A stretch of DNA of 64,000 nucleotides from Mycobacterium sp. KBS0706 (GTDB lineage: Bacteria > Pseudomonadota > Alphaproteobacteria > DSM-16000 > Inquilinaceae): assembly GCF_005938675.2 (NCBI RefSeq), contig NZ_VCCH02000008.1:1-64000 (forward strand), in the 5' to 3' direction. A program made the translations under genes and the position numbers. The notes beneath the pieces were generated by a model that worked only from the letters and a program-made list of their open reading frames with translations, ran no database searches and was not told the origin of the DNA. This document shows, piece by piece, positions 37,460 to 43,613 of this stretch; within the stretch, counting starts at the first letter, position 1, and each line of letters begins with the position of its first letter.

Positions 37460-37594
37460 CGAACCCTCCGTGGACCTCGGCCGGCGTCCGTCCGGCCTGG
37501 TTTTTTGTCGGTCCGAGGGGATCTGTCCGGCCACGGTGATGATCCGGCTTGTTCCGCAGGCGGTGGCCGGGATAGGTCTTGCTGCGCACCGCCC

Positions 37595-37624
37595 TGTGCG
37601 GATCGGTGCGGATCTGTGCGGAGG
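37595..37624. promoter_or_regulatory. Three consecutive 10-bp repeats between the sortase target and XRE genes
   Basis: TGTGCGGATC, GGTGCGGATC and TGTGCGGAGG follow one another without spacing (37595–37624), immediately upstream of the XRE start at 37633. Repeats at one-helical-turn spacing (10 bp) are typical of regulator-binding arrays where dimers bind the same DNA face. The array lies in the divergent gap (37460–37632). This is the best candidate control site for the sortase operon. Confidence 0.5.
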
Positions 37625-37632
37625 AGGGCGCC

Positions 37633-38436
37633 TTGGTCGGGTTGACGACGCACCCAGCCGACCACGAGCTGTCGGAGGAGCAGAGCCACGCCGTTGCCGG
37701 GCTGGTGCGGGAGGAGCTGGCCCGCCGCCGCATCTCCCGCCAGTTCCTGGCCGACCAGGCGAAGATCAGCCTGTCGACGCTGGAGAAGGCGCTGTCCGGG
37801 CGCCGGCCCTTCACCCTGGCGACGCTGATCCGGCTGGAGGAGGCGCTGGGCGTCAAGCTGCGTCATCCGGAGCCGAAGCCGGCCGCCGCCGCTGCGCCTG
37901 TAACGCTGGCCGGGCCGGTCGGAGTGGCGCCGGAGGGGCTCGGCTCCTATTCCCGGCCGGCCGTGTCCTGGATCGAGGGGGCGTATCTGACGCTGCGGCC
38001 GTCCTTCGGCGACCGCCGCGCGATCTACGCCTACCGCACCGAGATCCGCTGGGACGAGGCCGGGTCGCACCTGGCCTTCCATGAGGCGGAGCGGGTGGAC
38101 GCCGCCTTCACCCAGCACGGCACCGTCTCGGTGCCGCACCAATCCGGACATATCTACCTGGTGACCAACACCCACGGGCAGTACCGGATGGCGGTGCTGG
38201 GCCGGCCGACGATCACCGGCGAGATGCACGGCATCCTGACCACGCTGCAGGCCGGACCCGGGTCGCAGCTCACCCCCGTCGCGTCGCCGATCGTGCTGGT
38301 GCCGATGGCGGCGGCGGGCGCGCCGGAGTTCGGCCGCATCGCCGCCGACCATGCCTGCCACGCCCGCTATCGCGACATCCTGCGGCGGACGGTGGAGGAA
38401 TCCTTCGCCCGCTTCTTGCCGGTCTCGGCGGAGTAG
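37633..38436 (+). CDS. XRE-family transcriptional regulator divergent from the sortase system
   Basis: A 267-residue regulator. The TTG start at 37633 has GAGGAGGG five bases upstream. The HTH_XRE is at about residues 25–75 (VREELARRRISRQFLADQAK, LSTLEKALSGRRPFTLATLIRLE), followed by a Pro/Ala linker and a C-terminal sensor-like domain with a YSRPAVSWIEGAYLTLRPSF opening. This C-terminal domain is shared by some standalone XRE regulators; its ligand is unknown. Divergent transcription and the three 10-bp repeats upstream suggest it controls the sortase/vWA genes and itself (inference). Confidence 0.82.
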   Translation: MVGLTTHPADHELSEEQSHAVAGLVREELARRRISRQFLADQAKISLSTLEKALSGRRPFTLATLIRLEEALGVKLRHPEPKPAAAAAPVTLAGPVGVAPEGLGSYSRPAVSWIEGAYLTLRPSFGDRRAIYAYRTEIRWDEAGSHLAFHEAERVDAAFTQHGTVSVPHQSGHIYLVTNTHGQYRMAVLGRPTITGEMHGILTTLQAGPGSQLTPVASPIVLVPMAAAGAPEFGRIAADHACHARYRDILRRTVEESFARFLPVSAE

Positions 38437-40454: not shown

Positions 40455-43400
40455 ATGCGCTTTCACGCCGATCTGCACGTCCATTCCAAGCATTCGCGGG
40501 CGACCAGCCGGGACCTCGACCTGGAGCACCTGGCGCATTGGGCGGCGCGCAAGGGCATCGGCGTGGTCGGCACCGGCGATTGCGTCCACCCGGTCTGGCT
40601 GGCCGAGCTGAAGGACAAGCTGGTGTCGGACACGCCCGGCCTGTTCCGGCTGCGGCCGGACCTCGAGGCCGCGGTGATGGCGACGCTGCCGGCGCCGTGC
40701 CGCACGCCGGTGCGCTTCATGCTGTCGACCGAGATCTCGACCATCTACAAGAAGGGCGACCGCACCCGGAAGATCCACCACCTGATCTACGGGCCGGATT
40801 TCGACACGATCGACCGGCTGCAGGCCAGCCTGGCGCGGATCGGCAACATCGCCTCGGACGGGCGGCCGATCCTCGGCCTCGATTCCCGCGACCTGCTGGA
40901 GATCGCGCTGGCCTCGGGGCCGGACGCCTATCTGGTCCCGGCCCATATCTGGACGCCCTGGTTCGCGGCGCTGGGGTCGCAATCCGGCTTCGATTCCATC
41001 GGCGAATGCTATGGCGACCTGTCAGACCACATCTTCGCGGTCGAGACCGGCCTGTCCTCGGACCCGGCGATGAACTGGCGGATCTCCTTCCTCGACCGCT
41101 ACCGCCTGACCTCGAACTCCGACGCGCATTCGCCGGGCAAGCTGGGGCGCGAAGCCACCGCCTTCGATTGCGACCCGGACTATCACGCCATCCGCCGGGC
41201 GCTGGAGACCGGGGAAGGCTATGTCGGCACGGTCGAGTTCTTCCCGGAGGAGGGCAAGTACCACGCCGACGGGCACCGCAAATGCGATGTCCGACTGAGC
41301 CCGCAGGAAACGCTGGCGCGGGACGGCCGCTGCCCGGTCTGCGGCCAGCCGGTCACGGTCGGCGTGCTGCACCGGATTGAGAAATTGGCCGACCGCAGCG
41401 AGGAAGAGGCAGTGCCGCCGCCGACGGCCGGCGAGATCGTGAGCCTGGTGCCGCTGCCGGAGATCCTGTCCGAGCTGCTGGCGACCGGCCCTTCCAGCAA
41501 GGCGGTGGAGCGCAGCTACGACCGGCTGGTCGGCACGCTGGGGTCGGAGCTGGGCATCCTCGGCAAGATCCCGGTCGAGGACATTGCCAGGGCCGAGGGC
41601 GAGTTGCTGGCCGAGGCGGTGACCCGGCTGCGGCGGGGCCAGGTGATCCGCGACGCCGGCTATGACGGCGAATACGGCGTGATCCGGCTGTTCGAACCGC
41701 AGGAACTCAAGAGCCGCACCGCCGGCGGGCTGTTGTTCGACCTGCCGCAGAGGCGGGCGGAGGCCTCGCCCCAACCTACATCCCGTCATCCCCGCGAAAG
41801 CGGGGGGCTTGTCGCCCCCGAACCAGAGGGAGATTCCCGCTTTCGCGGGAATGACGATGAAAGGGAGGGGGTAAAGAGCCCGAATGTCCGCGACACAACT
41901 GCCGCCTCGACCGGCCTCCTCGACCGGCTCGACCCCGACCAGCGGGCGGCGGCGGAGCGGGTGGTGGGGCCGCTTCTGATCGTCGCCGGGCCGGGCTCGG
42001 GCAAGACCCGGACGCTGACCCACCGCATCGCCCATCTGGTGGCAGGCGGCGCGGCGCCGGAGTCCTGCCTGGCCATCACCTTCACCCGGCGCGCGGCGGC
42101 GGAGATGCGCGAGCGGCTGGAGGCGCTGCTGCCGGGTGCTGCGGCACGGATGCCGATCCACACCTTCCATTCGCTCGGCCTCGCCTTCCTGCGCGAGCAT
42201 GGCGAGGCCGCCGGGCTGCACCGCGATGCCCGGGTGGCGGGGGAGGTGGAGCGCGCCGCCCTGCTGCAGGAGGTGCTGGAGGTATCGCGCACCAAGGCCG
42301 AACGGCTGCTGCGCGCGATCTCGCGGGCCAAGCGCACCGGGGCGCCGGCCGATCTCGACCTCGCCGAGGCGCTGGCCCGCTACGACGAGGCCCTGGCGCA
42401 GCGCAACTGGATCGATTTCGACGACCTGGTCGGCAAGACCATCGCGGCGCTGGAGGGGGATCCGGGCCTGGTCGCGCTGACCCGCGACCAGTTCCGCCAT
42501 GTCTCGGTCGACGAGTTCCAGGATGTCGATGACAGCCAGGTGCGGCTGCTGTCGCTGCTGGTGCCGTCTGGCGGCAATCTCTGCGTCATCGGCGACCCCG
42601 ACCAGGCGATCTACGGCTTCCGCGGTGCCGATGCCTCCTGCTTCGACCGCTTCCACCGCGACCACCCCGGCGCCGCGGTGATCCGGCTGCGGCGCAACTA
42701 CCGCTCGACCGGCACCATCGTCACCGCCGCCTCGCGCTTCATCGGGGCCGACGGCCGCACGGAGCCGGCGGCCGAGATCGTGCGGGCGATGCAGGACCGC
42801 ATCTCGGTCCACGCGGCCGCCAGCGACAAGGCCGAGGCCGAGTTCGTGGTGGCGGAGATCGAGGCGCTGCTGGGCGGCCACAGCTTCTTCTCGATCGACA
42901 GCGGCCGGTCGGACGGCCGCGCGGACGACCAGCTGTCCTTCTCCGACATCGCCGTGCTGTACCGCACCGACGCCCAGGCCGAGGCCGTCGCGGAGGCTTT
43001 GGGCCGCGGCAGCATGCCGTTCAAGAAGAGCTCGCTGGTGCCGCTGTCGGAGGATCCGGCGGTCCGCGCGCTGCTGGCGGCGCTGGAGCCGGAGGAGGGG
43101 CCGCAGCAGCTGCAACAGGCGTCCGAACGGCTGCGCCGTGACGGCGCCGATCCGGCCTCGACCACGGCGGCGCTGCAGCGCCTGTCGCTGATCGCCTCGC
43201 GGCAGGGCACCGACGATCGCACCGCCTTCCTTGCCGCCGTGGCGTTGGCGACCGAGGCCGATTTCTGGGACCCGCGCGCCGACCGGGTCTCGCTGCTGAC
43301 CCTGCATGCCGCCAAGGGGCTGGAGTTCCCGGTGGTGTTCATCCTCGGCCTGGAGGACGGCGTGCTGCCGCTGCGCTTCGGCGAGGCCGACCCGGCGGCG

Positions 43401-43613
43401 ACGGCGGAGGAGCGGCGGCTGTTCTATGTCGGCATGACCCGGGCGATGGACCGGCTGCTCCTGTGCCGAGCGCGCGAGCGGCGCTGGCGCGGCGGCATGG
43501 TGCGGCTGGAGGCATCGCCCTTCCTCGGCGAGATCGAGGCCGAACTCTTGGCCCATCGCCGCCCGGACCCGGCACCCAGGCGTCCAGCCGAGCGGCAGCT
43601 CAGCCTGTTCTAG
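40455..43613 (+). CDS. Fusion of Endonuclease Q-like PHP nuclease and UvrD-type helicase
   Basis: A 1052-residue protein. Residues 1–440 carry EndoQ-type motifs in order: HADLHVHSKHSRATS, GTGDCVHPVWLAEL, STEISTIYKKGDRT with RKIHHLIYGP, PAHIWTPWFAALGS, ETGLSSDPAMNW, SNSDAHSPGKLGRE, EFFPEEGKYHADGHRKC and a Cys-rich zinc ribbon (GHRKC, CPVCG). Residues 490–1052 carry a UvrD helicase: Walker A GPGSGKTRT near 512, TFTRRAAAEMRERL, DEFQDVDDSQVRLL, GDPDQAIYGFRG, RRNYRST, HAAKGLEFPVVF, YVGMTRAMDRLL. EndoQ enzymes nick DNA next to deaminated bases; the helicase may open DNA at the nick (inference). The ATG at 40455 follows GGGG. A REP-like repeat is translated between the halves. Confidence 0.85.
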   Translation: MRFHADLHVHSKHSRATSRDLDLEHLAHWAARKGIGVVGTGDCVHPVWLAELKDKLVSDTPGLFRLRPDLEAAVMATLPAPCRTPVRFMLSTEISTIYKKGDRTRKIHHLIYGPDFDTIDRLQASLARIGNIASDGRPILGLDSRDLLEIALASGPDAYLVPAHIWTPWFAALGSQSGFDSIGECYGDLSDHIFAVETGLSSDPAMNWRISFLDRYRLTSNSDAHSPGKLGREATAFDCDPDYHAIRRALETGEGYVGTVEFFPEEGKYHADGHRKCDVRLSPQETLARDGRCPVCGQPVTVGVLHRIEKLADRSEEEAVPPPTAGEIVSLVPLPEILSELLATGPSSKAVERSYDRLVGTLGSELGILGKIPVEDIARAEGELLAEAVTRLRRGQVIRDAGYDGEYGVIRLFEPQELKSRTAGGLLFDLPQRRAEASPQPTSRHPRESGGLVAPEPEGDSRFRGNDDEREGVKSPNVRDTTAASTGLLDRLDPDQRAAAERVVGPLLIVAGPGSGKTRTLTHRIAHLVAGGAAPESCLAITFTRRAAAEMRERLEALLPGAAARMPIHTFHSLGLAFLREHGEAAGLHRDARVAGEVERAALLQEVLEVSRTKAERLLRAISRAKRTGAPADLDLAEALARYDEALAQRNWIDFDDLVGKTIAALEGDPGLVALTRDQFRHVSVDEFQDVDDSQVRLLSLLVPSGGNLCVIGDPDQAIYGFRGADASCFDRFHRDHPGAAVIRLRRNYRSTGTIVTAASRFIGADGRTEPAAEIVRAMQDRISVHAAASDKAEAEFVVAEIEALLGGHSFFSIDSGRSDGRADDQLSFSDIAVLYRTDAQAEAVAEALGRGSMPFKKSSLVPLSEDPAVRALLAALEPEEGPQQLQQASERLRRDGADPASTTAALQRLSLIASRQGTDDRTAFLAAVALATEADFWDPRADRVSLLTLHAAKGLEFPVVFILGLEDGVLPLRFGEADPAATAEERRLFYVGMTRAMDRLLLCRARERRWRGGMVRLEASPFLGEIEAELLAHRRPDPAPRRPAERQLSLF
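41784..41856. repeat. REP-like palindrome inserted in frame between the two domains of the fusion gene
   Basis: CGTCATCCCCGCGAAAGCGGG and, 28 bp on, ATTCCCGCTTTCGCGGGAATGACG are inverted copies of a repeat widespread in bacterial genomes. It spans 73 bp and contributes about 25 residues (around positions 443–468, including HPRESGG and SRFRGNDD) without a stop. It lies in the linker between the nuclease and helicase domains, where an insertion would be tolerated. Confidence 0.9.

Follow-up and report, generated by a model that had tools for sequence, protein, structure and literature searches.

Endonuclease Q (EndoQ; COG1379/TIGR00375) has been characterised as a standalone enzyme (PfuEndoQ, TkoEndoQ and Bacillus EndoQ; 421 aa in T. 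kodakarensis). The helicases UvrD, PcrA and Rep of superfamily 1A (SF1A) translocate 3′ to 5′, and in the RepD-PcrA and MutL-UvrD systems such a helicase unwinds from a nick made by a partner, the partners being separate proteins and the nick origin- or strand-specific. AddA/RecB and AdnAB carry an SF1A motor and a nuclease in one chain, the nuclease being C-terminal and of an end-processing type. Here we analyse the first 64,000 nucleotides (the window) of contig NZ_VCCH02000008.1 of Mycobacterium sp. KBS0706 (RefSeq assembly GCF_005938675.2; Alphaproteobacteria, Inquilinaceae in GTDB), in which one gene encodes an EndoQ-like nuclease followed by a UvrD-type helicase (Table 1). The joining of nuclease and helicase in one polypeptide, as the initial annotation had described it, is confirmed: the frame is open from start to stop, lies inside a wider open stretch, and has a start (MRFHADLHVHSKHS) that is identical in four of five congeners and differs by one residue in the fifth.

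The protein resembles the characterised EndoQ enzymes in its match over the whole domain, its zinc and pocket residues and its sliding-clamp-type motif at the C-terminus, and differs from them in the fused helicase, a score below the TIGR00375 cut-off and a His-Cys-Cys-Cys zinc ribbon in place of four Cys. From UvrD, PcrA and Rep it is set apart by a 2B region about 80 residues shorter, a shorter C-terminus, a GG...D.GR insert and the attached nuclease. Unlike RepD-PcrA and MutL-UvrD it has a predicted lesion-type nuclease in cis, and although it shares with AddA/RecB and AdnAB a motor (here an observed match) and a nuclease in one chain, its nuclease is N-terminal, of the PHP family and predicted to be a lesion endonuclease. 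Judging from sequence and structural models, we consider it probable that the protein is a chromosomal, clamp-tethered excision-repair enzyme of bacteria. We found no published description of an EndoQ-UvrD fusion in the open-licence literature, though domain databases very likely display the architecture. The word "helicase" is absent from the main texts of PMC6202378, PMC11354406 and PMC4858679 and occurs once in that of PMC4357722, and the EndoQ passages of PMC7776575 and PMC8307549 do not mention the fusion. EndoQ, UvrD and the links between EndoQ and the clamp are already known; the novelty would lie in the fusion.

Table 1. Features of the EndoQ-UvrD fusion gene, in window coordinates
Feature	Position	Strand	Details
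EndoQ-UvrD fusion gene	40455..43613	+	Open frame, ATG 40455 to TAG 43613, 1052 aa plus stop; family and structure matches
EndoQ domain (PHP core, Zn ribbon, helical part), residues 1-421	40455..41717	+	
Zinc ribbon ligands H274, C277, C293, C296	41274..41342	+	Invariant in 95/95 fused and 8/8 standalone-labelled rows
Linker, residues 425-485	41727..41909	+	AlphaFold pLDDT <50 for 425-485
LLFDLP motif right after the EndoQ domain	41730..41747	+	F428 in 81/95 fused rows
Dispersed palindromic repeat, in frame in the linker	41784..41856	+	73 nt; 21-nt arms, 95% complementary, 31 nt between
SF1A UvrD-type helicase, ~residues 486-1040	41910..43574	+	
Walker A (motif I) GPGSGKT, residues 512-518	41988..42008	+	G512, K517, T518 in 95/95 fused rows
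Motif II DEFQD, residues 686-690	42510..42524	+	D686, E687, Q689, D690 in 95/95 fused rows
Family insert GGHSFFSIDSGR, residues 807-818, in the 2A part	42873..42908	+	Absent from the genome's own two UvrD-like proteins (alignment)
Shortened 2B region, ~residues 860-943	43032..43283	+	Motif IVa-V 115 residues vs 196 and 192 in own UvrD-like proteins
Beta-clamp-type motif QLSLF, residues 1048-1052 (C-terminus)	43596..43610	+	81/92 fused vs 2/3840 background frames

The nuclease half and the helicase half

The N-terminal half matches PfuEndoQ (5zb8) over its length (phmmer, E = 1e-49), and the EndoQ fold covers the whole domain. We took PfuEndoQ numbering from this alignment, in which the residues named in the literature landed on the expected letters. 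According to the EndoQ passages of a review (PMC8307549), PfuEndoQ E76, H84 and H139 form the zinc site and alanine at any of them abolishes activity, and G169 and S171, together with H139, sterically bar thymine and adenine. The corresponding residues of the fusion protein are E93, H108, H164, G199 and S201. In an alignment of 95 fused proteins (the window protein and loci L011-L090 and L123-L136), H164, G199 and S201 are kept throughout and E93 and H108 in 94, the remaining row (L023) starting at a contig edge; the rows labelled standalone (n = 8) match the fused ones at all five. D223, the counterpart of PfuEndoQ D193, which we take to be a catalytic residue, is kept in every fused row with letters at that place. 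The metal-binding and zinc-ribbon residues named by the initial annotation are present, and the ribbon is His-Cys-Cys-Cys in all 103 rows, the His replacing Pfu C249. By these residues the catalytic centre and base pocket are intact, and the domain is predicted to nick 5′ of uracil, hypoxanthine, xanthine and apurinic/apyrimidinic (AP) sites.

The C-terminal half matches the Pfam UvrD-helicase N-terminal domain (4e-65) and UvrD_C (1e-35), both above the Pfam cut-offs, and falls below the NCBIfam equivalog cut-offs for pcrA (363 of 911 bits), uvrD (292 of 1144) and rep (294 of 951). By profile scores both halves are clearly related to the named equivalogs but distinct from them, the nuclease half being EndoQ-like by domain and outside TIGR00375 as filed. 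SF1A motifs I to VI are all found in the motor. The sampled residues of motifs I-III are kept in all 95 fused rows, as are Y749 and R750 of motif IV (N748 in 93; R746 and R747 at the motif start are variable), those of motif V apart from T949 (94/95) and those of motif VI apart from E985 (93/95) and G993 (85/95).

Two UvrD-like proteins of the same genome, open frames of 807 and 735 aa, served as comparison motors. Compared with these, the 2B region is about 80 residues short and the distance from motif VI to the C-terminus is 68 residues versus 155 and 88, so the "complete UvrD motor" of the initial annotation stands as regards the SF1A motifs and not as regards 2B and the C-terminus. The shortening runs through the family: the stretch from motif IVa to V spans 104-141 residues (median 118) across the 77 fused proteins measured and is short in every one of them, another 16 rows being unmeasured since the regular expression did not match. 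Within the family insert, G807 and G808 are kept in all 95 fused rows and S813, D815 and R818 in 84, 87 and 86, respectively; the rest, including the aromatic pair, is variable, and a GGHSFFS-insert regular expression, which matched only 53 of 93, was too strict. The 1B stretch is shortened as well in the Endomicrobium protein L040 and the alphaproteobacterial protein L066 (TFH to DExQD, 76 and 61 residues versus 133 and 137).

Deletion of 2B from Rep (RepΔ2B) hyperactivates unwinding and leaves protein displacement deficient (PMC6158625), and UvrD-family helicases are activated by 2B-2B dimerisation (PMC13238157). By analogy, the fused motor would be adapted to unwinding and under looser control by dimerisation, and the trimmed 2B may leave it active as a monomer and less dependent on dimerisation.

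The C-terminal clamp-type motif and the linker

The near-invariant clamp-type motif at the C-terminus was overlooked in the initial annotation, as were the 2B shortening and the linker repeats. The beta-clamp consensus is QL[S/D]LF, of which positions 1, 4 and 5 seem most important (motif passages of PMC3919608). The fusion protein ends on a motif of this type inside a disordered region, residues 1041-1052 having an AlphaFold predicted local distance difference test (pLDDT) score below 50. Among 92 distinct complete fused proteins (L028 and L036, cut by contig ends, and L131, the same protein as L014, being omitted), a looser form Q[LM]xL[FLI] lies within the last 12 residues of 81 and the strict form QL[SD]LF in 36. 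The remaining 11 tails read QDSLF, QETLF (2), QRTLF, QKSLF, QLRLV, QLTLNWDD (2), QLAFKLE, QMSFDF and, in L030, QLTLF farther from the end. As background we took 3,840 other frames of at least 120 aa from the same loci, which are mechanical open frames uncurated as genes: the looser motif occurs in 2 of them and the strict motif in none, and shuffled tails give 0.2%.

Thermococcales EndoQ is bound and stimulated by PCNA through a C-terminal PCNA-interacting protein (PIP) box, with a dissociation constant of 55 nM in T. kodakarensis, and clamp-binding motifs have been reported in the C-termini of bacterial EndoQ homologs (both in the clamp-related passages of PMC4858679). The clamp linkage of bacterial EndoQ is, by those passages, the idea of the authors of PMC4858679; what we add is the near-universal retention of the motif at the end of the fusion, after the helicase. 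Going by the motif, the QLSLF tail probably docks on the replication clamp DnaN. In one standalone protein (L166, from the phylum sample around locus L071), EQLSLL directly follows the EndoQ domain.

The linker between the halves is probably disordered, as the model depicts it, and its anchor-to-anchor length ranges from 34 to 135 residues (median 71) in 93 fused rows. At the place of LLFDLP, a hydrophobic motif weaker than the C-terminal one, the form Q..LF is found in 15 and [LM]F in 56 of 92 fused proteins, and the Micromonospora version is ETLFDVP. Motifs of this type may be a remnant or ancestral clamp contact, or a second one.

Distribution, history and genome context

For the fused query we analysed the best 80 of 582 related loci; that all 80 are fused reflects a biased choice and is not usable as a frequency. 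By record title these best 80 of 582 belong to 11 phyla: Pseudomonadota, Actinomycetota, Myxococcota, Planctomycetota, Verrucomicrobiota, Acidobacteriota, Chloroflexota, Elusimicrobiota, Melainabacteria, Binatota and Poribacteria. Many of the loci are from metagenome-assembled genomes (MAGs), and the isolates span at least Pseudomonadota, Actinomycetota and Myxococcota. EndoQ had been credited by the initial annotation to archaea and "a few bacteria", which is too narrow for a fused family of this reach, patchy though it is. The fused relatives are single frames, free of any frame break.

We also drew genome samples by taxon, in which counts include the centre genome and fused and standalone genes are told apart by open-frame length, a call sequence-checked for L092-L095, L123-L136 and the standalone rows. 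The fusion occurs in all six searched genomes of the window's genus, its own included. In the phylum draw 18 of 299 genomes have an EndoQ match (10 frames above 1000 aa, 7 standalone, 1 cut). A second phylum draw, centred on the L071 locus of Micromonospora, gave matches in 8 of 296 genomes, of which 5 are in frames above 1000 aa, 1 is truncated at a contig end, 1 is standalone and 1 is very weak. Nuclease and helicase as separate genes in relatives would have spoken against the fusion, and the seven genomes with standalone EndoQ have only ordinary or partial UvrD-like matches elsewhere. Their best helicases are ordinary UvrD-like frames, 38-41% identical in five genomes and weaker or partial in G538 (75% complete) and G516 (80% complete); a two-gene version with a matching 2B-short helicase was found in none of the seven.

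A tree of 83 EndoQ domains, built without L023, L028, L036, L131 and a number of rows from Micromonospora and the congeners, contains three changes between fused and standalone labels. One of these is caused by L144, a contig-end cut that is labelled standalone in alignment and tree. Without it the tree is satisfied if the helicase was gained once and lost once, the loss falling in the lineage of seven standalone proteins of the window's phylum, which nests inside the fused set (a 13-row clade, support 98/92). Support for the deeper branching order is weak (86/34, 89/65, 94/64), the Pfu branch is very long and several standalone branches are long. On this topology a single origin of the fusion is likely. 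The standalone EndoQ proteins of that lineage (L137-L143) have neither helicase nor clamp motif, which suggests that the two were lost jointly. Two Endomicrobium-type symbionts by record title, L040 (about 0.9 Mb) and L068 (about 1.0 Mb), both MAGs, carry the fusion, and EndoV was not found in them; retention in genomes of about 0.9 and 1.0 Mb suggests that the fusion is worth keeping.

No repair gene is among the Pfam-named neighbours in the window. Upstream lie a LysR-type regulator and an arginase-family gene, with a helix-turn-helix gene further out, and on the downstream side come an EamA transporter, a glutathione S-transferase and an NAD-dependent epimerase. The helix-turn-helix gene (37579-38436) weakly matches the candidate defence models PDC-M64B and PDC-M64C (E = 6e-6 and 9e-6). 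A search for a conserved operon partner clustered all frames of 120 aa or more in the surroundings of 102 loci (L011-L090 and L123-L144), many of whose flanks end at contig ends. It yielded mainly shadow frames of the gene itself and then small families that, judged by eye, are generic or lineage-local. The largest clusters beyond the shadow frames cover at most 9 loci, with kin merged. This lack of a conserved adjoining repair partner is consistent with a gene working alone. An origin as a mobile-element or phage gene was rejected, the EndoQ half being unmatched in 50,697 phage records and 72,556 plasmids, and a scan of viral contigs for it gave 10 pattern hits, none of them confirmed. The window's own genome has six hits to the uracil-DNA glycosylase (UDG) family, and EndoV was not found in it; the assembly (8.97 Mb, 449 contigs) carries 9.8% contamination, and some of the six hits may be foreign.

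The palindromic repeat in the linker is one copy of a dispersed element; counting this copy, the genome has the element at 40 places (70 hits over the two strands, with 40 of 55 candidates scored). The segment 41775-41865 that spans the linker copy has a fold z of -5.7. L125 carries this element too, at the identical linker position and in frame. In L123, L124, L126 and L127 a different palindromic element sits there, also in frame, and for the L123 copy there are 40 matching places in the genome of the window (of 268 candidates, 40 were scored). Within one genus, two unrelated families of dispersed palindromes have thus colonised the same flexible linker in frame in different species. The Rickettsia palindromic elements are comparable in-frame repeats within proteins. 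The in-frame repeats indicate that the linker tolerates insertions and is probably just a tether.

Proposed mechanism and its alternatives

In the mechanism we propose, the QLSLF tail would dock on DnaN, and the EndoQ domain would flip out a uracil, hypoxanthine, xanthine or AP site, nick 5′ of the lesion and leave a 3′-OH. The tethered motor would then load at the nick on the intact strand, travel 3′ to 5′ and displace the lesion-bearing strand as a 5′ flap, after which a clamp-bound polymerase would extend the 3′-OH and ordinary Pol I or exonuclease, with ligase, would remove the flap and seal. Movement 3′ to 5′ on the intact strand implies that the lesion-bearing 5′ end is the one peeled, and PcrA unwinds after the Rep nick by analogous strand peeling. 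For the step after the nick, the discoverers of EndoQ put forward polymerase strand displacement, or EndoQ acting with EndoV and removal by a helicase (model section of PMC4357722). Of the initial annotation's proposal of a self-contained machine that recognises, nicks and unwinds, the order of events is still the reading best supported by sequence, and "fully self-contained" is not, since the C-terminal motif suggests coupling to the clamp. A broader proposal, which we hold more tentatively, is a single-polypeptide, clamp-guided excision of deaminated bases that would stand apart from base excision repair led by a glycosylase, from EndoV repair and from UvrABC, and in which a clamp-borne EndoQ would search and nick 5′ and a 2B-trimmed motor freed from dimer control would peel; such a pathway would be old, present in many phyla and kept in Endomicrobium-type symbionts of about 1 Mb.

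Several observations weigh against a clamp-tethered excision-repair enzyme. The TIGR00375 profile does match the nuclease half, as an EndoQ assignment calls for, at E = 2e-42, though with 145.7 bits it stays under the curated NCBI cut-off of 326.6, a cut-off exceeded in 0 of the 299 genomes of the phylum sample; given this score, EndoQ chemistry is read from residues and fold. The first His of the PHP HxH (H8) is Gln in five fused rows, or four distinct proteins (L013, L014 = L131, L128 and L129), a natural variant of the PHP metal site, and H109 is Asn in one fused row (L077). The direction of the helicase is taken from the SF1A family and would be that of the motor by kinship. The trimmed 2B may also be a weakness, as RepΔ2B displaces proteins poorly. 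The AlphaFold model (predicted template modelling score, pTM, 0.60) leaves the placement of the two halves relative to each other unfixed. The seven complete standalone relatives of the window's phylum have no clamp motif, which implies that EndoQ can do without the helicase and without the clamp motif. Occurrence is patchy, with an EndoQ match in 6 of 385 genomes of the class draw, its own included (5 long frames, 1 cut by a contig end). Finally, in 32 carrier genomes hand-chosen from the best 80 of 582 loci, the UDG family is present in 31 and EndoV exceeds its cut-off in 11 (5 strong, the others partial or weak), which makes the fusion at most a parallel route; its replacing UDG or EndoV was rejected as a general rule.

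The two activities could also be joined and yet uncoupled, EndoQ nicking and the helicase doing ordinary UvrD-like work, with the linker as a tether and the clamp as shared recruitment. A linker that is long, modelled with low confidence, of differing length among family members and permissive to repeat insertion fits this explanation, as does the lack of a special partner helicase for the standalone EndoQ relatives. It is made unlikely by the retention of the fusion across 11 phyla by record title and by motor changes that run family-wide, 2B being short in every fused protein measured. Were the protein instead a replication-linked strand editor, clamp-tied nicking of new strands at deoxyuridine or deoxyinosine would start a resection resembling mismatch repair. 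The clamp-type motif, the PCNA binding of archaeal EndoQ described in the clamp-related passages of PMC4858679 and the presence of UDG in 31 of 32 carriers, by which bulk uracil repair is already covered, would all suit such a role. The present data carry no sign of strand bias, however, and no mismatch-repair genes stood out among the conserved neighbour clusters (the carriers were not searched for such genes), and we judge a strand editor to be quite unlikely.

A role in defence against foreign DNA with uracil or deaminated bases, which the nuclease would mark and the motor unwind, is brought to mind by the scores of the motor with Gabija GajB profiles and by a statement in the EndoQ passages of the review PMC8307549 that bacterial EndoQ may join antiviral defence. 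The GajB hits correspond to the generic UvrD core, however, and the EndoQ half matches 0 PADLOC models. Of the six window neighbours none matches a Gabija model, five are without a PADLOC hit and the helix-turn-helix gene is weak (about 1e-5). No GajA or other defence partner lies beside the gene and no partner cluster is conserved, the fusion is in all the genus genomes searched, and the EndoQ half has no relative in phage records, plasmids or confirmed viral-contig hits. We regard defence as very improbable. A sequencing or assembly artefact joining two genes, to which we give practically no credence, is already refuted by the relatives, as five congeners and isolates and MAGs of many phyla carry the same fusion.

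A clamp-tethered excision-repair enzyme is the account we prefer, and the joining of nuclease and helicase, together with the clamp-type motif, would point to one answer for the step that follows the EndoQ nick. Mesophilic isolates carrying the fusion (e.g. Chelativorans and Micromonospora) make this step testable. By record title, the fused family extends the known reach of EndoQ-type domains beyond a few bacteria, to 11 phyla. It also supplies a naturally 2B-shortened UvrD motor, which is of use in the present debate about 2B regulation (PMC13238157).

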